From positions 1 through 32,781 of the forward strand of contig CALFRN010000031.1 in the NCBI GenBank assembly GCA_937919085.1: DNA of 32,781 nt, given 5' to 3'. The notes under the pieces are model-generated. The model was not told where the DNA came from. It made no database searches and was given only the letters and a program-made list of their open reading frames with translations. Shown in pieces: positions 20,796 through 31,132 of the stretch (positions are counted from its first letter, which is position 1; the number at the start of each line of letters is the position of its first letter). Source of the DNA: an uncultured Reyranella sp. GTDB taxonomy: Bacteria; Pseudomonadota; Alphaproteobacteria; Reyranellales; Reyranellaceae. The translations under genes were made by a program, and so were the position numbers.

Positions 20796-21644
20796 CTAGA
20801 CCACAGCGTCGCCGGCGATCTGCGTGCGCTGCAGGCGGCGATGAAACGGGCCGGCGTCGTGGATGGCGAGATGCTTGGTGCAGCGGTTGTCCCAGAAGGC
20901 GATCGAGCCTGCCTCCCAGCGGAAACGGCAGGTGAATTCCGGCCGATGACCGTGGTCCATCAGGAAATCCAGCAGCGGCCGGCTCTCGCGTTCGGTCATG
21001 CCGTCGAAGCGGCAGGTGTAGGAGTGATTCACGAACAGACACTTGCGGTTGGTCTCGGGATGGGTGCGCACCACCGGATGGCTGCTCTCGGTCGCGCGCC
21101 AGTTGGCGTCTTCACGGATCTTGCTGGAGCGGCGGGCATTGAGGTTGTTGTGCGGGCCGGCCACCTTCATGTCGCTATGCACGGCCTTCAGGTCGGCCAG
21201 CATCGCCTTCATGCCGTCCGACAGGGTCTCCCAGGCGAGATACTGGTTGGCGAACAGCGTGTCGCCACCCCACGGCGGCACGTCGAGGGCATAGAGAATG
21301 GCGCCCATCGGCGGCTCGGGCATCATGGTGGTGTCGGAATGCCACTCCTCGCCGATGATGCGTTCGTCGCCGGGCTTGCGCACCACGCGCACGATCTCGG
21401 GGTCGCCCTCGCCGATGTCGAAATTGGGATGGATGAACAGCTTGCCGAAGCGTCGGGTGAAGTCCTTGTGGCTCGCGTCGTCGAGTCTCTGGCCACGGAA
21501 GAAGATGACCAGATGGTCCAGCAGCGCGCGGCGGATCTCGGCGATCGTGGCGTCGTCGAGCCCGGCCGCGATGTCGATGCCGCCGATCTCCGCGCCAAGG
21601 GCGCCGGCGATCGGCGAGACGGTTATGCGTTGGTAGTCAGCCAT
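20796..21644 (-). CDS. TauD/TfdA-family 2-oxoglutarate dioxygenase
   Basis: 282 aa, the usual length. The iron site is complete: His102 and Asp104 in EEWHSDTT and His258 in DNRCTKHL. Arg269 in the FHRRL segment is the likely 2-oxoglutarate anchor. The HxD means hydroxylase chemistry, not the HxG/A of carrier-protein halogenases. Family members oxidise taurine, alkylsulfates, phenoxyacetates or carnitine precursors; the substrate here is unknown. It follows the amidohydrolase gene on the same strand (67-bp gap). No clear Shine-Dalgarno is seen. Confidence 0.92.
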   Translation of the reverse strand: MADYQRITVSPIAGALGAEIGGIDIAAGLDDATIAEIRRALLDHLVIFFRGQRLDDASHKDFTRRFGKLFIHPNFDIGEGDPEIVRVVRKPGDERIIGEEWHSDTTMMPEPPMGAILYALDVPPWGGDTLFANQYLAWETLSDGMKAMLADLKAVHSDMKVAGPHNNLNARRSSKIREDANWRATESSHPVVRTHPETNRKCLFVNHSYTCRFDGMTERESRPLLDFLMDHGHRPEFTCRFRWEAGSIAFWDNRCTKHLAIHDAGPFHRRLQRTQIAGDAVV

Positions 21645-21711: not shown

Positions 21712-22983
21712 CTACGCTGCCACCACCTCGGGCAGGATCGGTGCCGCCGCGTCGTGGCGCCGGCCGGCGCGCAGGCAGAACAGGGGCGTCAGCATGCGGT
21801 CGGCGATCACCTCGGTGCCTTCGTTGTCTCCCAGCCGGAAGCGGCCACGGTCGTCGGCCAGCACCGAGACGTCGGCCACCGCGCCGGGCTTCAAAGTGCC
21901 GATCTCGTCCTTCAACCCGAGCATGGAAGCGGCGTTGGTCGTCACCATGGGCACGATCTGTTTCAGGGTGAGGCCGAGCGCCAGCAACTCGGTCATGGCG
22001 TAGCAGAGGCTGAAGCGGGCGGCGCCGGCGAAGGGATGTGCCTCCTCGGGATCGGGATGTGCGGCCGGCGTGCCGGGTGGCGGCGTCATGCGCGTATTGT
22101 AGCCGTGCATGTCGGCGCCCAGCGTGTCGGGCAGCACGCCGGCCGCGAGCGCCAGGCGTGCCATCTTGAAGGAGAAGTGGCTGCCGTGGCCGACGTCGAC
22201 TTTCAGGCCGCGCGCCAGCGCGGTGGCGACGACGGGATGGAGCTTGCCGTGCCTGTCGACGAAGCCGCCGGGATGGCGGGTGAAGGGATGGGCCAAGATA
22301 TCGCCCGGGCGCATCAGTTCGACCACGGCGGGCAGGATGCCGTCGGGGTCGACGCCGTTGCTGCCTTCCGGCAGGGCCCACATCTGGCCAAAGTGCATAT
22401 AGACCGGCAGGTCGGTTTCGCGGCCGATCTCGGCCGCCAGGCGCAGCACGTCGAGGCCCCAGCGCGTGATGCCGCCGACCTCGGCATGGACCTTTATGCC
22501 ACGCACCAGGTCGCGGTTGGCCCCGACCGTCTTCACCGTGGCGGCGACATCGACGCCGTGCGGCCCGTACAGGCCGGGATAGAAGTGCCCTTCGAGTCCG
22601 CCCACGACGTAGGCCGAGATGAACGAAAGCACACGGCTCTGCGCCGGTTCGGCGATGAACTTCCGAAAGCCCGGGAAGGTCATGCAGGAGGCGCCGCCCT
22701 GGTCGACGAGGGTGGTGACGCCGCTCTCGACGCCCACCATGTCTGCCGGCAGGCCGAAACGGCCGGAGACGTAGGTATAGATGTGGGCATGGGTGTCGAT
22801 CATACCCGGCAGCACGAGGCGGCCGCGCACGTCGACCGTCTCGCGCGCCGTGCCTGGCAGGTCCTTCTGTACCGCGGCGATGCGGCCATCCCTGATGGCG
22901 ACATCGGCGATGCCGTCGAGGCCAGTGGCCGGATCGACGACATGGCCGCCGCGCAGCAGGAAATCGTAGGGGTCAACGGTCAT
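21712..22983 (-). CDS. Metal-dependent amidohydrolase (deacetylase / dihydroorotase-like)
   Basis: 423 aa from ATG 22983. The HxH of the binuclear metal site is His65 and His67 in PGMIDTHAHIY. A candidate bridging Lys is in GIKVHAEVG, later His are in VYMHFGQ and ILAHPFT, and an Asp is in GADMHGYN. The order matches the amidohydrolase superfamily subgroup of EF_0837-type deacetylases. It hydrolyses an amide or cyclic amide; substrate unknown. No signal peptide. The frame is open further upstream, but that sequence is not family-like. The 82-residue unknown gene lies 40 bp upstream and the TauD gene 67 bp downstream, all on one strand. Confidence 0.88.
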   Translation of the reverse strand: MTVDPYDFLLRGGHVVDPATGLDGIADVAIRDGRIAAVQKDLPGTARETVDVRGRLVLPGMIDTHAHIYTYVSGRFGLPADMVGVESGVTTLVDQGGASCMTFPGFRKFIAEPAQSRVLSFISAYVVGGLEGHFYPGLYGPHGVDVAATVKTVGANRDLVRGIKVHAEVGGITRWGLDVLRLAAEIGRETDLPVYMHFGQMWALPEGSNGVDPDGILPAVVELMRPGDILAHPFTRHPGGFVDRHGKLHPVVATALARGLKVDVGHGSHFSFKMARLALAAGVLPDTLGADMHGYNTRMTPPPGTPAAHPDPEEAHPFAGAARFSLCYAMTELLALGLTLKQIVPMVTTNAASMLGLKDEIGTLKPGAVADVSVLADDRGRFRLGDNEGTEVIADRMLTPLFCLRAGRRHDAAAPILPEVVAA

Positions 22984-23023
22984 GGCACTACGTTCGCAAG
23001 CGTCATGCCAATGCCCCGCGCCG

Positions 23024-23272
23024 TCAGCGGCAGATGAAGGCCTTGAAGCTGATGATGTCGCACGGCGAGCCGGTGCGCTCGCAATGGGCAACGAACTCCT
23101 CGGGCGTGACCTTGACCATCTGGATGGTGTGCCGCCTGGCCCGCCACTCCGCGATCCGGGCGGTTTCCTTCAGATGCCAGTCGGCGTAGGACGCGGCGGG
23201 ATAGTGCTTCACCAGTTTCTGAAGCTTTTCATGGTCGGTCGCGGAGACCTGGGCAAAATACTGTACGGCCAT
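23024..23272 (-). CDS. Small protein of unknown function, 82 aa
   Basis: 82 aa starting at ATG 23272 with GAGGA nine bases upstream. It is hydrophilic, with Tyr/His/Trp-rich helices (ADWHLKETARIAEWRARRHT) and two Cys near the C-terminus (AHCERTGSPCD) plus a final Cys. I do not recognise the family. The spacing and strand place it at the head of the amidohydrolase-TauD group. The amino-acid make-up is typical of a real protein. Confidence 0.65.
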   Translation of the reverse strand: MAVQYFAQVSATDHEKLQKLVKHYPAASYADWHLKETARIAEWRARRHTIQMVKVTPEEFVAHCERTGSPCDIISFKAFICR

Positions 23273-23455: not shown

Positions 23456-24241
23456 ATGTTCCGTGTGGCGGCGATTCTCTTCCTGTTGTTTTGCGCTGGC
23501 GGCGCCTCGGCGCAGTCCGTGAGCTTTCCCGGCGTCGCGGTGGGCAGCGCGGCCGTGGGCCCCGAGGTGAAGGGCTGGATCTACAAGCCCGGCGGGCCGG
23601 GCCCGTTCGCGGCGATCATCCTCGCGCACTCCTGCGCCGGCACCGGTTCGCACACCGACGTCTGGGGCAAGTTGCTGGTGAGCTGGGGCTATCTCGTGCT
23701 GATGCCCGACTCGTTCGGGCCGCGCGGCACCAAGGCGGTGTGCACCACGCCCAATGTCGTGACGCCCAACATGCGGATTGCCGACATCGCCGGCGCGCTC
23801 GACTTTCTCTCCGCCCGGCCCGACGTGATCAAGGGCAAGATCGGCATCATCGGCCACAGCCATGGCGGTTCGACGGTGATCCGCTCGTCGCAAAGGATTT
23901 TCGGGCTCGCCAGTCGCGGTCTTGCCGGCGGCGTGGCCTACTATCCCGGCTGCAATCCGCAGTTCGACATCGGCGTCGACGTGCCGGTTCTGCTGCTGGC
24001 CGGAGACAAGGACGACTGGACGCTGGCCGATCGCTGCCGCCGGATGGTCTCGGGCCTGGCGCGGCCGGCCCTGGTCGACGCGGTGTTCTATCCCGACGCC
24101 TACCACAGCTTCGATTCCAAGGTGCGGGACCGCGAGGTCGCCGGCTCCGGCGGCAAGATGCACCACCTTGCCTACGATCCGATGGCGGCGCCCGACGCCG
24201 AGGCCCGGACGAAGGCGTTCTTCGCGAAGATCCTGCGCTAG
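23456..24241 (+). CDS. Secreted alpha/beta hydrolase (dienelactone hydrolase-like)
   Basis: 261 aa. The N-terminus is a signal peptide (MFRVAAILFLLFCAGGASA, cleavage before QS). The core has ILAHSCAGTG, then GIIGHSHGGST with nucleophile Ser (dienelactone hydrolases use Cys), LLLAGDKDDW with the acid Asp, and DAYHSFD with the His. It hydrolyses an ester, lactone or similar bond in the periplasm. Four further Cys could form disulfides. No Shine-Dalgarno is seen before ATG 23456. Its TAG overlaps the convergent ureohydrolase stop in CTAG (24238-24241). Confidence 0.9.
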   Translation: MFRVAAILFLLFCAGGASAQSVSFPGVAVGSAAVGPEVKGWIYKPGGPGPFAAIILAHSCAGTGSHTDVWGKLLVSWGYLVLMPDSFGPRGTKAVCTTPNVVTPNMRIADIAGALDFLSARPDVIKGKIGIIGHSHGGSTVIRSSQRIFGLASRGLAGGVAYYPGCNPQFDIGVDVPVLLLAGDKDDWTLADRCRRMVSGLARPALVDAVFYPDAYHSFDSKVRDREVAGSGGKMHHLAYDPMAAPDAEARTKAFFAKILR

Positions 24242-25176
24242 TCGGCCAAGCCCATCTGGCGGCTGAGCAGCACCAGCGTCTCGTAGATGACGTGGGCGCA
24301 GAGGTGGGCGGCCATGCCGTTCACGTCCTGCGGCGGGCTCACGGTGTTGACGTCGACCGCCACGATGTTGAGGTCGGTGAGACAGCGCAGGAGATCGATG
24401 CCCTCGCGCGCGCTGAGGCCGCCCCACGACGGCGTGCAGACGCCCGGCGCGCAGGAGGGATCGAACACGTCCATGTCGAAGCAGAGATAGACCGGCCGCT
24501 TGCCGACCCGGTCGCGGAACTCGGCCATGCGCTGGGCGAAGCCGCCGCGGATCAGCTCGTCGAGCGAAACGACCTTGTAGCCGAGGCTCATGGCGCGGGG
24601 CACCACGTCCTTGGCGTAGGTCGTGCTGCGGATGCCGACGTGCCAGGAGAATTCGGGATCGACCAGGCCCTCCTCGGCCACGTGCGTGAACTGGGTGGCT
24701 GAATTGTACTTTTCGTCCTCGCCGTAGGGGTAGGAATCGGTGTGCGAGTCGATGTGCAGTGCCGCCATCTTCGGATACTTGCGGCCGACCGCACGCGCGA
24801 CCGGCACGGTGACCGAGCCGTCGCCGCCGATGGTGATCGGCACCGCGCCCGCGGCCACGATGCGGTCGACCGCCTGTTCGGTGCGCTCGAAGGCGTCGAC
24901 GATCTTCGACGGCGTGAGCCGGACGTTGCCGCAATCGACCAGGCCCAGCGCCGCGACGGGATCGAAGTCGGCGTTGGTCGGGTTGAAGCGCCGCATCAGC
25001 GCGGACTGCTGGCGCACGGAGTCCGGTCCGCCGCGCGCGCCGATGCGCATGTTGGTGCCGCAGTCGAAGGGAATGCCGAGAATGGCGGCCTTGTTGGCGG
25101 GGCCTGGCCGGCCATAGGGTGCGCCCATGAAGGTGAGCGGCATGGTGAAGAGGTCTTCGTCGGCGAGACGGTCCAT
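24238..25176 (-). CDS. Ureohydrolase (agmatinase/arginase family) with altered active-site residues
   Basis: 312 aa. The arginase fold is clear: HIDSHTDSYP (Asp143, His145, Asp147), LCFDMDVFDPSCAPG (Asp234, Asp236) and PPQDVNG near the end. Two positions differ from the classical site. The metal-ligand His of GGDHS is Gly120 (GGDGSVT), and the substrate-contacting Glu of EVNP is Thr278 (NTVSP). The codon is GGC, so it is not a one-base reading error from a His codon. The enzyme may bind one metal, or act on another guanidino, amidino or formimino substrate. It is the last gene of the ABC-M20 group, starting 3 bp after the M20 stop, and overlaps the stop of the convergent hydrolase gene. Confidence 0.9.
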   Translation of the reverse strand: MDRLADEDLFTMPLTFMGAPYGRPGPANKAAILGIPFDCGTNMRIGARGGPDSVRQQSALMRRFNPTNADFDPVAALGLVDCGNVRLTPSKIVDAFERTEQAVDRIVAAGAVPITIGGDGSVTVPVARAVGRKYPKMAALHIDSHTDSYPYGEDEKYNSATQFTHVAEEGLVDPEFSWHVGIRSTTYAKDVVPRAMSLGYKVVSLDELIRGGFAQRMAEFRDRVGKRPVYLCFDMDVFDPSCAPGVCTPSWGGLSAREGIDLLRCLTDLNIVAVDVNTVSPPQDVNGMAAHLCAHVIYETLVLLSRQMGLAD

Positions 25177-25179
25177 CGA

Positions 25180-26436
25180 TCAGGGCTCCGCGGAAAGGAA
25201 ATCGTAGGCGACCAGGGTATGGATTTTGGCGACGGCCAACAATTCGTCGACGAGGACATGTTCGTCAGGTCCGCCCATGTTGAAAGGCGTCAGCCCCAGC
25301 ACGACGGTCGGTACCCCGTACAGGCGGTACCAGCGCGAATCCGAGCCGCCGACCCTCATGTTGACGGCGGGGGCCTCGCCCAGCACTTCGGCCGCCACCC
25401 GGGCCGTTCGGGTCACGATCTCGTGCTCCGGCGGGGTGAAGGAGGGCTCGAAGCGGCGGATGGCCTTCCAGCTCACGCCCTCGAGCGGCGCCAGCCACGC
25501 GTCGAGCTTCGCTGCCAGCACGTCGGTCGTGATGCCGACCGGCAGCCTGATGTCGGCGCGGGCAATGGCGTGCGTCGGCACCAGGTTGGGCGAGGCGCCG
25601 CCCTCGATGGTACCGATGTTCACGGTGACCCTGCCGAGCGTGTCGGCTTCGCCCGCACCCGACAGCGACTCGGAGATCGCTTTTGCCCGCGCGATCGCGG
25701 CGGTGACGACCGGAGGCGCCTGGAACGGTACGTCCTCCAGGTCCTTCAGGCGGTCGAGCGCGATGCGCAGCCGGTCGATGGCATTGGTGCCCTTGTGCAC
25801 GTGCGCCCCGTGCGCCGGCGCGCCGACGGCCTCGATCTCGACCCACATCAGGCCCTTTTCGCCGAAACGCACGACACGCGGCGAGCCCACGTCGCCGCAG
25901 ATGTTGGCGTCGCCCAGGGCATGCGGGACGTGCTCCAGCAGGTAGCCGGAGCCCAGCGAGCCCATGTTCTCCTCGTCGCCGGCCAGCGTCAGCACGATCT
26001 CGCCGTTCCACGCGTCGCGATGCTCGGCCAGCAGAGCGGCGGCGAGCAGGGAGCAGGCGATGCCGCCCTTCATATCGCAGACCCCGCGGCCGTAGAGCCT
26101 GCCGTCCCTGAGCACGCCACCCAGTGGAGGCACGGTCCAGGGCAGGTTCTCCAGGATGGGAAAGGTGTCGAGGTGGCCGTTGAAGATCAGGCGGCGGCCG
26201 GGCTTGCCGCTCTTGATGCGGGCGACCAGCGAGACCACGCGCGGCGCCGGTTCGATGCGTTCGACCTCGATGCCGGGCAGTTCGTGCAAGAGCGCCTCGG
26301 CCACGCCGGCGACTTTGAACGTGTCGCTCGGCGGGTTGGGCGAGGCGACGGCGACCAGCCGCCGCGTGACGTCGATCAGGCGGTCCAGCGAATCCTCGAC
26401 GCGGCGCGCCAGGTCGTTGCGGATTTTCGAAGACAT
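25180..26436 (-). CDS. M20-family metallopeptidase / deacylase (ArgE/DapE-like)
   Basis: 418 aa from ATG 26436, which shares a base with the permease stop (TGATG, 26438-26434). The two-metal site is visible: FNGHLDTF (His88, Asp90), GRGVCDMKGG (Asp121) and LAGDEENMGS (Glu155, Glu156). A dimerisation domain follows (about 190-310: KGLMWVEIEAVGAPAHGAH). Members remove acyl groups from amino acids or cut short peptides in the cytosol. Position between permease and ureohydrolase suggests it acts on the imported compound. Confidence 0.92.
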   Translation of the reverse strand: MSSKIRNDLARRVEDSLDRLIDVTRRLVAVASPNPPSDTFKVAGVAEALLHELPGIEVERIEPAPRVVSLVARIKSGKPGRRLIFNGHLDTFPILENLPWTVPPLGGVLRDGRLYGRGVCDMKGGIACSLLAAALLAEHRDAWNGEIVLTLAGDEENMGSLGSGYLLEHVPHALGDANICGDVGSPRVVRFGEKGLMWVEIEAVGAPAHGAHVHKGTNAIDRLRIALDRLKDLEDVPFQAPPVVTAAIARAKAISESLSGAGEADTLGRVTVNIGTIEGGASPNLVPTHAIARADIRLPVGITTDVLAAKLDAWLAPLEGVSWKAIRRFEPSFTPPEHEIVTRTARVAAEVLGEAPAVNMRVGGSDSRWYRLYGVPTVVLGLTPFNMGGPDEHVLVDELLAVAKIHTLVAYDFLSAEP

Positions 26437-27101
26437 CAGCGTGCCTGCAGCCGGCGTTCCCATAAGCGGATGGCCATGGCGAGCGGCCAGCAGATGAGGA
26501 AGTAGACCACGGCGATGAAAGTGAAGGTCTCGAGAGGCCGGAAGTTGCTGGCCGAGAGCTCCATGCCGCGGCGCGTGATCTCGCTCACCGAGATGACGGC
26601 GCCCAGCGAGGAGAACTTGATGAGCTGCACGAAGTTCGAGGCCAGCGGCGGCAGCGTCATGCGGATCGCCTGCGGCAGCACGATCCGACGAAACGACTGC
26701 AGAGGCGAAAGCCCGAGCACCTGTGCCGCCTCGACATGGCCCTTGGGCACGCTCTGGATTCCCGATCGGTAGACTTCGGAGATGAAAGCGGCCTGATAGA
26801 GCGCGAGCCCGATGATCAGCGCCACCAGCGCCTCGATGCGGATGCTGAAGACGATCGGCAGCACGTAGTAGACCCAGAGCAACTGCACCAGGATCGGTGT
26901 GTTGCGCACGACCTCGCCGATCGAGATGCCGATCCAGCGCAACACCCTGAAGCGCGACATGTCGAGGAGCGCGATGATCAGTCCTCCGATCATCGCCAGC
27001 ACGAGGGTCGCCGCCGAGACGACGAGCGTCATCTGCAGTCCGCCCATCAGGAAGTCGAAGCTGCCCCAGACCGTGTCCCAGCGGAATTGATACTTGAACA
27101 T
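26436..27101 (-). CDS. Amino-acid ABC transporter permease (His/Glu/Gln type)
   Basis: 221 aa with five predicted membrane helices. The EAA loop (VEAAQVLGLSPLQSFRRIVLP, Glu124) and RNTPILVQLLWVYY in the N-terminal half are typical of polar amino-acid permeases. Only one permease gene is present, so it probably forms a homodimer. It follows the binding-protein gene by 127 bp, a gap full of palindromes. The start has only a weak ribosome-binding site (GAG adjacent to ATG). Confidence 0.93.
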   Translation of the reverse strand: MFKYQFRWDTVWGSFDFLMGGLQMTLVVSAATLVLAMIGGLIIALLDMSRFRVLRWIGISIGEVVRNTPILVQLLWVYYVLPIVFSIRIEALVALIIGLALYQAAFISEVYRSGIQSVPKGHVEAAQVLGLSPLQSFRRIVLPQAIRMTLPPLASNFVQLIKFSSLGAVISVSEITRRGMELSASNFRPLETFTFIAVVYFLICWPLAMAIRLWERRLQAR

Positions 27102-27228: not shown

Positions 27229-28035
27229 TCATGGTGCCACGATCGGGTCGAGCTTGTGCTTCTTGGCATACTTCGCCAGCCGGCCGTCGAGCTTGATGGT
27301 ATCGACGAACAGGTTGACGTAGTTCAGCCAGATCTGGTCTCCCTGCGGCACGACATAGGCGTAGGGGGTGATGGCGAGCTTCTCGTCGGGCAGGAGGTAG
27401 ACCGCCCAGTCGAATTCGTCGGTCACTTTGATGGCGGTCGGGAAGTCGGTGATGATCACATCGACCCGGCCGGCCACCAGTTCGGCCTCGCGGGTGCCGG
27501 GCGGTGCCACCGACACGATCTCGGCGTTCTTCGCGTAGCCCTTCATAAAGGGTTCCATGTAGCTGCCGAGCGAGACGGCGGCCTTGACGCCCTTCTGGTC
27601 GACGTCCGACCACTTCTTGATCTTGCTGTCCTTGCGCGTGACGGCATAGAGGTTGGTCAGCAGGTAGGGCTTGGAGAAGGCGACCGCCTGCGCACGCTTC
27701 AACGTGGCGCCGACGCCAAACATGCCGATTTCGCATTTGCCGGCCTGCAGGTCGGCGATGAAGCTGCCGAAGCTCGACTCGACGATCTCGAGCTGGGCGC
27801 CGAGCTCCTTGGCGAATTCCTTGGCAAGGTCGGCATCGATGCCCTCGATCTCGCCGGTCTTGGGATTGCGGAACGAGATCGAATAATAGAGCGGGAACTG
27901 GCAGACCCGGACCTTCTTGTTCTTGGTCACGTCGTAGAGTCGCGACTGCGTCTGCTGGGCCTCGGCGGCCGTGACCGTCAACGCGCCGATCGTGCCCGCT
28001 GCCGCCAGCGTTGCCACTAACCTTGCAATTCTCAT
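27229..28035 (-). CDS. Periplasmic amino-acid binding protein (family 3)
   Basis: 268 aa. A signal peptide ends at about residue 26 (AEA before QQ). The mature part is a family-3 solute-binding protein: RVCQFPLYYSISFRNPKTGE, then GIDADLAKEFAKELGA, then FGSFIADLQAGKCEIGM and FSKPYLLTNLYAV. It captures a small amino-acid-like solute for the ABC system. The start (ATG 28035) has GGGAGA eight bases upstream. The ATPase gene lies 34 bp upstream. Confidence 0.94.
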   Translation of the reverse strand: MRIARLVATLAAAGTIGALTVTAAEAQQTQSRLYDVTKNKKVRVCQFPLYYSISFRNPKTGEIEGIDADLAKEFAKELGAQLEIVESSFGSFIADLQAGKCEIGMFGVGATLKRAQAVAFSKPYLLTNLYAVTRKDSKIKKWSDVDQKGVKAAVSLGSYMEPFMKGYAKNAEIVSVAPPGTREAELVAGRVDVIITDFPTAIKVTDEFDWAVYLLPDEKLAITPYAYVVPQGDQIWLNYVNLFVDTIKLDGRLAKYAKKHKLDPIVAP

Positions 28036-28069: not shown

Positions 28070-28828
28070 TCACTCCTCGAACTGCTGCAGGAAGCGCTTG
28101 AGGCGCTCCGTCTTCGGCGCATCGAAGAACGCCGCGCCGGGCGCCTCCTCGACAATCTCGCCGCGATCCATGAACACGGTGCGCGTGCCGACGTGGCGCG
28201 CGAAGCCCATCTCGTGCGTGACGACCAGCATGGTCATGCCTTCCTGCGCGAGCTGACGCATGACGATCAGCACCTCGCGCCGCAGTTCGGGATCGAGCGC
28301 GCTGGTCGCCTCGTCGAACAGCAGGACCTTGGGCGACATGGCGAGCGCGCGGGCGATGGCCACTCGTTGCTGCTGGCCGCCCGACAGCCGCACCGGATAG
28401 GCGTCGCGCTTGTCCGACAGATCGACCTTGGCCAGCAGCGCCTCGGCCATGGCGACCGCCTGGTCGCGCCGCATCTTTTTCACTCGGAGCGGCGCCTCGA
28501 TCAGGTTCTCCAGCACCGACATGTGCGGCCACAGATTGAAGTGCTGGAACACCATGCCGATCTCGGAGCGCACTGCCCGCGCTGCCGACTTGATCTGTCG
28601 GTCAGGTTCGGCGGTCGAGATCGGCGTGCCTTCCATCAGGATGCGGCCCTCGCTTGGCAACTCCAGCAGGGCGAAGCAGCGCAGCAGGGTGGTCTTGCCG
28701 GAGCCGGATGGCCCCACGACGCAGACCACATCGCGCTCCATCACCGGCAGCGACACAAGCGTCAGCACCTGGTGGGTGCCGAACCGCTTGGTCACGGCAT
28801 CAGCCAGAATGATGGGGGTGCCACTCAT
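28070..28828 (-). CDS. Amino-acid ABC transporter ATP-binding protein (GlnQ type)
   Basis: 252 aa from ATG 28828. Walker A GPSGSGKTT is at 39-47, the signature LSGGQQQR begins at 148, and Walker B LLFDEATSALD at 169-179. A Q-loop (GMVFQHFNLWPH) and the H-loop (VVTHEMGFARHV) are present. It powers import by the linked permease and binding protein. First gene of the operon, divergent from the LysR gene. Confidence 0.94.
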   Translation of the reverse strand: MSGTPIILADAVTKRFGTHQVLTLVSLPVMERDVVCVVGPSGSGKTTLLRCFALLELPSEGRILMEGTPISTAEPDRQIKSAARAVRSEIGMVFQHFNLWPHMSVLENLIEAPLRVKKMRRDQAVAMAEALLAKVDLSDKRDAYPVRLSGGQQQRVAIARALAMSPKVLLFDEATSALDPELRREVLIVMRQLAQEGMTMLVVTHEMGFARHVGTRTVFMDRGEIVEEAPGAAFFDAPKTERLKRFLQQFEE

Positions 28829-28852
28829 GGGTTGATCGGCCTCATGCCAAAT

Positions 28853-28869
28853 CATAAGCAATACCTATG
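28853..28869. promoter_or_regulatory. Possible LysR operator CATA-N9-TATG
   Basis: The dyad CATA (28853-28856) and TATG (28866-28869), nine bases apart, contains the T-N11-A pattern of LysR-type boxes. It lies in the divergent gap, 25 bp from the ATPase start and about 93 bp from the LysR start, where such sites are usually found. A short motif; chance occurrence is possible. Confidence 0.35.
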
Positions 28870-28961: not shown

Positions 28962-29840
28962 ATGGACGTCAAGCTCCTCGAAGCCTTTCGTGCCGTCGTC
29001 GACCATCGTTCGGTGACCGCCGCGGCCGCGGCCATCGGGGTGACCCAGCCTGCCGTCAGTACGCAGATCGCTCGTCTGGAAGGGGCGGTTGGCTTCTTGC
29101 TGTTCGAGCGCGCCGGGGGCCGGCTCAAGCCGACGCCCGAGGGTTTGCTGTTTTACGCCGAAGCAAGTCGCGTGCTGGGCGAGGTCGACCGCCTGGCGAC
29201 AGCCACGGCGCAGATCCGCGAAGGCCAGTCCGGGCGGCTGGTGATCGCCAGCCATCCGTCGGCAGCGATCTCGCTACTGCCCGACCTGGTGGCCGACTTC
29301 CTCGCCAGGCGGCCGGGCGTCTCGGTGCGGCTGATCTCGCGTCACTCCGATGTGGTGAGCCAGCTTCTGCCGAACGAGAGTTTCGACATCGGTATCGCCG
29401 AGCTGCCGATCGACGAGAGCCAGGTCAAGGTCGCGCGCTACGAGATGCGCTGCGTCGCCATCCTGCCGCCACATCATCCGTTGGAGGCGCACAGGGTCCT
29501 GACGCCCAGGCTGCTGTCTGACCATCCCATGGTGGCGCCGGCGCGGGCGCTGCAGATGCCGCCTCGCCTCATCGCCGCTTTCGCCGAAGCGGGCGCTCAG
29601 CTCAATGCCGTGGTCGAGGCAGAGTTCTTTGCCAGCCTCTGCGGCCTGGTTGCCGCCGGGACGGGTTGGTCGATGGTCGATCCGCTGTCGGCCGAGAGCT
29701 TCGCCCATCTCGGGTTGGTCGTGCGCCCGTTCGAGCCCGCCATTGCCTACGAAATCGGCGCCTTCCACCGTCGCGACCGCGAGCCCTCGGTGCTGGCGGT
29801 GGCGTTTCTGGAAATGCTCGACGCAAAACTCAAGAAGTGA
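28962..29840 (+). CDS. LysR-family transcriptional regulator
   Basis: 292 aa. Residues 1-60 are the winged helix-turn-helix (MDVKLLEAFRAVVDHRSVTA, then IGVTQPAVSTQIARLE). The effector domain follows (VIASHPSAAISLLPDLVADF, then FDIGIAELPID). It is divergent from the ABC operon and directly upstream of the M28 peptidase gene, so it probably controls both, with an imported compound as co-inducer. A TATAAT lies at 28953-28958, only three bases before the ATG. Confidence 0.94.
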   Translation: MDVKLLEAFRAVVDHRSVTAAAAAIGVTQPAVSTQIARLEGAVGFLLFERAGGRLKPTPEGLLFYAEASRVLGEVDRLATATAQIREGQSGRLVIASHPSAAISLLPDLVADFLARRPGVSVRLISRHSDVVSQLLPNESFDIGIAELPIDESQVKVARYEMRCVAILPPHHPLEAHRVLTPRLLSDHPMVAPARALQMPPRLIAAFAEAGAQLNAVVEAEFFASLCGLVAAGTGWSMVDPLSAESFAHLGLVVRPFEPAIAYEIGAFHRRDREPSVLAVAFLEMLDAKLKK

Positions 29841-29845
29841 ATGCC

Positions 29846-31132
29846 ATGCGCCTGGACCCGGATACCACCGCCCTGATCGCCACCGACCAGGAGCTGTGGC
29901 GCGACTTCAACGACATCTGCGATCGCGGCGGACGGCTGGCCGGCAGCGAGAGCGAAAAGCGAGCCTTCGCCCTGCTGCGCGAGCGGGTGCGGGCGGCGTC
30001 ACCGGCCAATAGCGGCCGGTCCATTCCCGTGCCCTATGGTGGCTGGCGTGCGACTCGCGCGGCGCTCGCGCTTGCCGAAGGTGGAACCGTGTCCTGCCAT
30101 CCGCTGGTGCGCACCATTGCCACAGCCGAGTGCGGCCTTACTGCCGAGGTGATCGATCTCGGCCGCGGTACGCCCGAGGAGTTCGACGCGCATGCCGCCG
30201 AGATCAAGGGCCGCATCGTTCTGGTGCGGCACGAGCTGATGTTCGCTGCCGGTACCATCCATCGCCGCCGCAAGTACGATATGGCGCGGACCCATGGCGC
30301 CGTGGGTTTCCTGATTGCGGGGCCGCTGGCCGGCCATGTCGTGGCGGGTTCGTCGGGGCGCGAGTCGGGCGACGGTATTCCGGCCCTTGGCATCTCGCCC
30401 GAAACTGCGGCGCGCCTGGCGCGACGCGCGGCGGGCTGGCCCACGGCAACGATGACGATCGAGACCGAAGAGGGGCCGGCCGAAACCGAGACCCTGGTCT
30501 ACGACTACCCCGGACAGAGCGACGAATGGGTCGTGCTCTCTGCCCATGTCGACGGTCACGACCTTGCTGAAAGCGCGATGGACAACGGCACCGGCCTTGC
30601 TGCCGTGCTGGCCGTCACGCGCGCGCTGGCGCCCCGGGCGGCGGGTTTCCGGCGCGGGTTGCGCGTGATGTTCTTCAGCGTCGAGGAATGGGCGCTCACA
30701 GGCTCGGCGCAGTATGTGAAGGCGCTGGGCGAGCCGGAGCGCGCCAAGATCGCGCTCAACGTCAATCTCGACTCGGTCGCCGGCAGCCCGCATCTGGCCG
30801 CGCTTTCCAGCGGCTACGGCGGCGTCGAGCCATTCCTGCTGGGCGTCGCCGAGGCGAATGGTCAAAACCTGCGCACCGTGCGGCCGCTGATGACCAATTC
30901 CGACCACGCCAACTTCGCCTTGGGCGGAATTCCGGCGATTCGCCTGGTGGCGGGCTTCGACGATCCGGCCGCGCATCTGCGCGTCGTGCTGACGCCCGCC
31001 GACACGCGGGACAAGGTGGCGCAATCCGAACTGCGACAGGCGACGCTGTTAACGGCGGCGCTGGTCGCCGCCGCCTGCAACGCCGATCCCGCCGAAGCAG
31101 CGACGTGGCGGATGAAGCAGGTACCTGCCTGA
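29846..31132 (+). CDS. M28-family aminopeptidase with PA-like insert
   Basis: 428 aa from ATG 29846, 5 bp after the LysR stop; GTG 29837 is an alternative. The two-zinc site is complete: His234 and Asp236 (SAHVDGHD), Asp246 (MDNGTG), Glu280-Glu281 (SVEEW), Asp309 (NLDSVAG) and His354 (NSDHANF). Residues about 115-205 look like a PA domain inserted before the catalytic part (IVLVRHELMFAAGTI, then GIPALGIS). No signal peptide, so probably cytosolic. It removes an N-terminal residue or an acyl group from a small peptide or conjugate. Coupled to LysR. Confidence 0.9.
   Translation: MRLDPDTTALIATDQELWRDFNDICDRGGRLAGSESEKRAFALLRERVRAASPANSGRSIPVPYGGWRATRAALALAEGGTVSCHPLVRTIATAECGLTAEVIDLGRGTPEEFDAHAAEIKGRIVLVRHELMFAAGTIHRRRKYDMARTHGAVGFLIAGPLAGHVVAGSSGRESGDGIPALGISPETAARLARRAAGWPTATMTIETEEGPAETETLVYDYPGQSDEWVVLSAHVDGHDLAESAMDNGTGLAAVLAVTRALAPRAAGFRRGLRVMFFSVEEWALTGSAQYVKALGEPERAKIALNVNLDSVAGSPHLAALSSGYGGVEPFLLGVAEANGQNLRTVRPLMTNSDHANFALGGIPAIRLVAGFDDPAAHLRVVLTPADTRDKVAQSELRQATLLTAALVAAACNADPAEAATWRMKQVPA

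Follow-up and report, generated by a model that had tools for sequence, protein, structure and literature searches.

An arginase-family clade with a glycine, a threonine and no catalytic-loop histidine in a remodelled active site

Results and Discussion

The arginase-family protein P0001 of an uncultured Reyranella sp. belongs to a clade whose active site has been remodelled, within a fold and a family that are already known. The His ligand of the first manganese, Mn(A), is glycine in every aligned member, the Glu that binds the guanidinium group is threonine, the catalytic-loop His is missing, and the five other metal ligands are invariant. P0001 is probably an active enzyme whose substrate is another nitrogen compound that the cell imports. 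A prior report of this clade was not found in open-licence PMC papers.

The gene and its active-site residues

P0001 is an uninterrupted reading frame in the window, that is, the whole stretch of DNA analysed, 32,781 nucleotides long. The features of the gene are as follows.

24238..25176, minus strand: GGDG-type arginase-family protein, 312 aa (PF00491, 251 bits)
24817..24819, minus strand: Gly120 codon (GGC) in place of the Mn(A) His (Gly in 53 of 53 family rows)
24343..24345, minus strand: Thr278 codon (ACC) in place of the guanidinium-binding Glu (Thr in 53 of 53 family rows)
24697..24702, minus strand: Ser159-Ala160 in place of the catalytic-loop His-Gly (His in 0 of 53 family rows and in 64 of 79 others)

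Gly120 closes the string G117 G118 D119 G120, and Thr278 falls in D275 V276 N277 T278, at the Glu of the D-V-x-E-V-x-P motif. Both replacements were named in the original prediction; the residue numbers, the GGC codon of Gly120 and the alignments with guanidinopropionase, guanidinobutyrase, proclavaminate amidino hydrolase (PAH) and E. coli agmatinase, gap-free at both sites, agree with it. It also held that the other four ligands are kept: all those it named are retained, but they number five, namely Asp143, His145 and Asp147 (in D143 S144 H145 T146 D147) and Asp234 and Asp236 (in D234 M235 D236). The catalytic loop is an addition to that observation. Its 'HG', containing the proton shuttle His163 of E. 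coli agmatinase, is Ser159-Ala160 in P0001. The finding is real and clade-wide, and it reaches further than first noted. Thr248, by our own count the equivalent of E. coli agmatinase Thr244, is retained. The stop codon of the gene overlaps (24238–24241) the end of a convergent plus-strand ORF of the dienelactone hydrolase family that terminates at 24241.

The roles of these positions are described for E. coli agmatinase. His126 binds the low-affinity manganese, His163 is the proton shuttle, Glu274 binds guanidine, and the high-affinity site consists of Asp149, His151, Asp230 and Asp232 (PMC8125230); Thr244 is the third proposed guanidinium contact (PMC8049259). The H126N mutant has 50% of the activity left and H151N has none (PMC7313459), while E274A is left with 1–2% and H163F with 3–5% (PMC8125230). 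Hence the loss of the Mn(A) His is tolerable, whereas guanidine hydrolysis should be disrupted once the Glu and the shuttle His are gone. In sequence, the clade has lost the His of the weak metal together with two guanidine-handling side chains, and has retained the tight metal site. Since H126N is active and natural non-His sequences exist, the loss of the Mn(A) His alone proves neither a single metal nor the lack of catalysis; the joint loss of the Glu and the proton-shuttle His is the stronger argument.

Conservation in the family

Gly120, Thr278, Asp143, His145, Asp147, Asp234 and Asp236 are invariant in all 53 aligned family rows, which reach down to about 43% identity. These comprise 25 rows of alignment A1, 24 of L106–L130, three plasmid rows and the second copy of L102; at least four genes are present twice (F_L072/L106, F_L088/L112, F_L094/L113, F_L102/L102), so that about 49 genes are distinct. 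They were aligned with 79 other arginase-family rows, a non-random sample of five phylum profile matches, the paralog from the same genome, 28 best-match loci, seven second genes within loci and 38 hand-picked rows (taken from 40 places, less the family gene L205 and the duplicate L194). Rows shorter than 180 aa and exact duplicates were dropped, and the fragments L097, L099, L100, L101 and L103 were left out.

The other rows differ sharply at all three positions. At position 120 they have His (74), Cys (2), Asn (2) or Asp (1), and at position 278 Glu (78) or Cys (1). The shuttle position, Ser in P0001 and Pro, Ala, Thr, Asn or Val in its family relatives, is His in 64 of the 79. Six of the other rows carry GGGH, a motif from which we take them to be formimidoylglutamases; they have Ser at the shuttle position and retain the Glu. 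Several positions are specific to the clade: Met235, Val246 and Thr278 occur in 53/53 family rows, Asn277 in 52/53 and His179 in 50/53, the last position being Gln in 67 of the 79 others.

A homologue alignment of 66 distinct family rows, down to 44% identity, has Gly120 and Thr278 in 66/66 and His159 in 0/66; residue 160 is Ala, Ser or Gly, and residue 277 is Asn in 64 rows and Ala in two. (L089 was dropped here by the length filter but is included in A1.) A one-off change among homologues keeping the His and the Glu was looked for and did not occur, as 53 of 53 rows share the change. A one-off mutation or a sequencing error is ruled out by the pattern common to both family alignments.

Within the genus, 41 of 65 genomes have a match of at least 485 bits over at least 240 residues, and fragments are seen in two more (G029, G060). 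Profile searches, which are independent of the query motifs, gave matches in 24 of 385 genomes of the class (E 1e-85, the source genome included) and in seven of 398 genomes of the phylum (E 1e-80), limits that hid weaker matches. All 27 matches scoring at least 379 bits, the query gene included, are GGDG with Thr, and all five scoring 301 bits or less are GGDH with Glu; this gap marks the family boundary. The motif scan of an 84,980-species collection was built on the query motifs and favours look-alikes; it yielded 71 loci, assigned by record names to the Alphaproteobacteria, to the Burkholderiales or Betaproteobacteria, or to the Proteobacteria without further placement. A plasmid search gave 282 matching records, the best three at 45–63% identity and the remainder at about 39% or less among the 60 rows listed. 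Three annotated plasmid records name the family gene 'arginase family protein' only. Phyla beyond that of the window were covered by the motif scan and the plasmid search. Two metagenome-assembled records named Rhizobium sp. Q54 and Asaia bogorensis (L035, L042) carry genes 94–95% identical to that of the window; the record names are probably wrong.

The family is under purifying selection: dN/dS between P0001 and six relatives is 0.08–0.20 (six pairs). Together with stop-free aligned stretches in the listed loci, this rules out decay. The earlier argument that the gene is used and not decaying had been drawn from its operon partners; selection now speaks for it too, and the importer/M20 operon is often present.

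Phylogeny and natural variants

In the tree of family and other arginase-family rows, the family forms one clade (SH-aLRT 100). Removing the columns of the active site and seven long, unstable rows leaves it as one clade (bootstrap 100, SH-aLRT 99, 200/200 bootstrap trees). The nearest relative in the sample is L131 (G755:C13:516126-517019), which has GGDH and the Glu but reads SAGTPF in the catalytic loop, that is, the shuttle His is lost. The L131 gene (also L233) adjoins ABC ATPase and permease genes and a cluster of PxpA (5-oxoprolinase-type), biotin carboxylase and aminotransferase genes. It is a possible intermediate, a single row being too little to say so.

The view that families normally keep all six ligands has exceptions: 74 of the 79 non-family rows have the Mn(A) His, and the other five have Cys, Asn or Asp at this position. 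In L219, L221, L223, L227 and L228, GGDC, GGDD or GGNN stands instead of GGDH and the Glu is retained; these are further natural changes of this ligand, separate from that of the clade. A further natural exception is the Trypanosoma cruzi formiminoglutamase, as the title of structure 4myn, 'N114H variant', implies a natural Asn at the Mn(A) His. L215 (G112:C10) has PF00491, GGDH, Cys for the Glu (DIVCMIP) and no His aligned at the shuttle position; it is a long-branch outlier outside the GGDG clade.

Fold and relation to known families

P0001 scores far above the cut-off of the arginase family PF00491 (251 bits vs 22), which is its sole Pfam match at E 0.001. The scores are below the cut-offs of both agmatinase profiles (TIGR01230, 157.1 vs 174.3; NF002564, 220.8 vs 302) and of formimidoylglutamase (TIGR01227, 105.3 vs 229.15). 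The AF2 model built on alignment A1 has pLDDT 86.5 and pTM 0.90, with residues 39–48 below 50; the loop after the first strand, to which these residues correspond, helps to cover the metals in agmatinase (PMC8125230). The model has the arginase alpha/beta fold, matching 1gq6 with Z 40.5 over 293 residues (rmsd 1.9), E. coli agmatinase with Z 38.1 and guanidinopropionase with Z 37.8, over nearly the whole chain.

The best solved relatives are guanidinopropionase and guanidinobutyrase (3nip, 3nio), PAH (1gq6) and agmatinase (7lol). They share with P0001 the fold (Z 40.5 to 31.8), 33–37% identity and five metal ligands. However, they have the Mn(A) His, the shuttle His and the Glu, where the GGDG clade has Gly, a non-His residue and Thr. 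Compared with functional binuclear ureohydrolases, with their two His and four Asp ligands, guanidinium-binding Glu and catalytic-loop His, P0001 has five of six ligands, Gly120 being the exception, and Thr278 and Ser159 at the other two positions. The T. cruzi formiminoglutamase (4mxr, 4myn) has the same fold as the model (Z 32) at 23% identity. Its Asn can bind metal, whereas the Gly of the clade has no side chain for it.

No clade-specific His, Asp or Cys adjoining Gly120 was seen in A1 as a replacement ligand; Asp119 is common to the canonical enzymes. His179, the clade-specific gain, lies on another strand of the model (178–182). The cysteines C39 and C247, which resemble a Cys pair of the T. 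cruzi formiminoglutamase, were set aside as paired cysteines, as no joint variation was visible by eye in A1.

By sequence, P0001 is not a member of the histone deacetylase (HDAC) and acetylpolyamine amidohydrolase families. Asp143, His145 and Asp236, invariant in the 53 rows, are presumably the counterparts of the HDAC Zn-site ligands. The HDACs and acetylpolyamine amidohydrolases typically lack Asp that the GGDG clade keeps. HDAC-type chains were absent among the 50 structure matches listed, and this does not weigh against the comparison. Of the two arginase metal sites, Mn(B) is conserved in these families, where it binds Zn, and they cut amides (PMC5454378).

The operon and its recurrence

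The gene closes an apparent operon of ABC transporter and M20 deacylase genes, beyond which lie a divergent LysR gene and a gene for an M28 peptidase.

25180..26463, minus strand: M20 ArgE/DapE-type deacylase, operon partner (profile match)
26436..27101, minus strand: polar amino-acid ABC permease (profile match)
27229..28035, minus strand: periplasmic binding protein SBP_bac_3 (ORF listed from 28155; start inferred at an internal Met, signal-like N terminus)
28070..28861, minus strand: amino-acid-type ABC ATPase (profile match)
28962..29840, plus strand: divergent LysR regulator (profile match)
29846..31132, plus strand: M28 peptidase with PA domain (start inferred; scanned from 29855)

The M28 peptidase, which by eye has no obvious signal peptide, is a frequent neighbour among the family loci. 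Elsewhere in the window (21712–23091, minus strand), an amidohydrolase above the NF006689 cut-off (410 vs 371 bits) adjoins a TauD-type dioxygenase (20796–21644).

Recurrence of the operon was counted in the 63 of 71 loci with at least 2 kb upstream (eight were left out), the count being confined to relatives of the M20, binding protein and permease encoded in the window. In 40 of the 63 loci, an M20 relative lies on the same strand no more than 2.5 kb away, and in 42 a relative of the binding protein or the permease lies no more than 6 kb away. Among the Reyranella loci with at least 91% identity, M20 is present in 27 of 31; among the 16 loci below 60% identity, M20 is found in 4 and the ABC genes in 4. 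The operon block is also seen in L069, L072 and L073. Tardiphaga and Bradyrhizobium (60%) carry it with M28 absent, and further copies occur on a Methylobacterium plasmid (63%) and in the Burkholderiales bin L087 (46%), where the contig begins at the ATPase. L064–L068 (86–89% identity) have neither M20 nor ABC genes. An alpha/beta hydrolase gene precedes the L065 copy, and amidohydrolase and aldehyde dehydrogenase genes follow the L068 copy. L063 and L099, of similar identity, carry the ABC/M20 operon. A partner gene conserved in all lineages was not found among relatives of these three genes in the 63 loci. Gly and Thr are fixed in one clade (53 of 53 rows), and the operon often goes with them, as M20 does in 40 of 63 loci.

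The neighbourhoods of more distant members vary. In Bosea, a flavin reductase gene precedes the family gene, which faces genes of the creatininase family and for a polysaccharide deacetylase; an LLM-class oxidoreductase gene and an AtzE-family gene lie nearby. In Caballeronia NK8, the family gene is followed by genes for a binding protein, a permease and an ATPase, and genes for RidA, gamma-glutamyltransferase and an aminotransferase are near. An ADI/DDAH-type protein is encoded close to the family gene in L102, together with an isochorismatase, and in L143, together with a DUF1028 protein. The L149 gene has an N-formylglutamate amidohydrolase neighbour and L145 another M20; a PhyH dioxygenase gene is near L088 (opposite strand) and, by eye, L081. 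A canonical ureohydrolase is situated about 7–8 kb from the family gene in Bosea (L158, 15522–16589, an agmatinase gene about 7 kb away) and in L102 (199–1182). Unhelpful neighbours are a response regulator (L137), MlaD and EamA (L139), SDR genes (L145, L147), a tRNA-synthetase-like gene (L148), and a Rieske oxygenase and a hydroxyacid dehydrogenase (L154). Some of these contexts, such as L102, L143, L149 and the M20 of L145, fit the catabolism of nitrogen compounds; taken together, the contexts name no single substrate.

Proposed function and alternatives

Among the outcomes allowed by the original prediction, a different substrate is the best reading, as the changes are clade-wide and often accompanied by the ABC importer/M20 operon. 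The residues, their fixation, the operon, the selection and the predicted fold lead us to propose a metal content, a reaction, a class of substrate and an order of steps. P0001 would be a catalytically active, metal-dependent hydrolase from a ureohydrolase clade that has taken on a new function. The high-affinity, Mn(B)-equivalent site (Asp143, His145, Asp234, Asp236) is retained, the Mn(A) His is gone, and so are two of the three side chains proposed to hold guanidinium (Glu, now Thr, and the shuttle His). The bond hydrolysed would be a neutral C-N bond, as in an amide, ureide, formyl group or lactam, of an amino-acid-like compound brought in by the ABC transporter, and the enzyme would act in series with the M20 deacylase.

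Work on a neutral bond is the simplest account of the three lost residues, the invariant tight site and the equivalence of Mn(B) to the Zn site of HDACs. The replacements fixed throughout the clade (Met235, Val246, Thr278, Asn277, His179) are what selection for a new pocket would give. The amide- and ureide-type genes in Bosea, the ADI/DDAH and isochorismatase genes in L102 and the N-formylglutamate amidohydrolase gene in L149 are counted in favour of such a substrate. Since 23 of 63 loci have no relative of the window's M20 within 2.5 kb, among them 12 of the 16 below 60% identity, lineages may differ in the compound. Against the reading, Thr248, by our count the third proposed guanidinium contact, is retained. 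ADI/DDAH relatives act on guanidino compounds, and hence these neighbours could also argue for a guanidino pathway. On balance, we give about half of our confidence to a catabolic metallohydrolase that relies on the Mn(B) site to cut a neutral C-N bond, not that of a guanidine, in an imported compound resembling an amino acid. It is only tentatively suggested, as a rather doubtful extension, that a one-metal amide hydrolase was carved here from a two-metal ureohydrolase, repeating independently the step from arginase to deacetylase, and that this is an unnamed activity of the Alphaproteobacteria and Burkholderiales.

An alternative is a two-metal enzyme acting on a guanidino or an amidino/formimino substrate, with three Asp and a water holding Mn(A) and other residues replacing the Glu and the shuttle His. 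In its favour, the T. cruzi enzyme has, by implication of the 4myn title, Asn at the Mn(A) His, the H126N agmatinase is half-active (PMC7313459), and Ser occupies the shuttle position in the six GGGH rows. Thr248 and the ADI/DDAH neighbours in L102 and L143 fit it as well. However, those same GGGH rows are among the 78 of 79 other rows that retain the Glu, and E274A and H163F have only the residual agmatinase activity cited above (PMC8125230). We consider a two-metal guanidino or formimino enzyme unlikely.

The protein might also be inactive, serving as a regulator, a scaffold or, in the style of metformin hydrolase, the pseudo-subunit that joins a canonical ureohydrolase in a hetero-oligomer. 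The precedent is MetCb and MefH-beta, arginase-family proteins with a damaged metal site, and the clade has itself lost three catalytic or binding residues. Candidate partners exist: a second PF00491 gene is present in five of the six genomes examined from the genus, with GGDH and Glu in the four that were read (L002, L230–L232), and canonical ureohydrolase genes lie at the distance given above in Bosea and L102. But MetCb lost five and MefH-beta four of the six ligands, compared with one in the GGDG clade, where the other five are invariant in 53 rows. Moreover, MetCb and MefH-beta are encoded beside their catalytic subunit, whereas the operon of the window has no such neighbour; the only other PF00491 match of this genome (99.81% complete, 525 contigs) is on another contig, outside the operon. 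In G066 (91% complete), a P0001-type gene is the sole PF00491 match. An inactive protein seems quite unlikely.

Finally, a metal-dependent non-hydrolytic enzyme of the same pathway (e.g. an isomerase, dehydratase or lyase) could have arisen with the loss of both His residues, the clade-specific His179 and Asn277 serving a new chemistry, but this is improbable indeed, the cited passages offering no arginase-family precedent and the M20 and M28 neighbours being hydrolase families.

Implications

If the reading of P0001 as a hydrolase of an imported non-guanidine compound is true, transfer of the name agmatinase to this family is wrong, and a catabolic pathway for a nitrogen compound opens to genetics. 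The clade and its GGDH sister row L131 would then make a natural test case for the change of a two-metal hydrolase into a different kind of protein.
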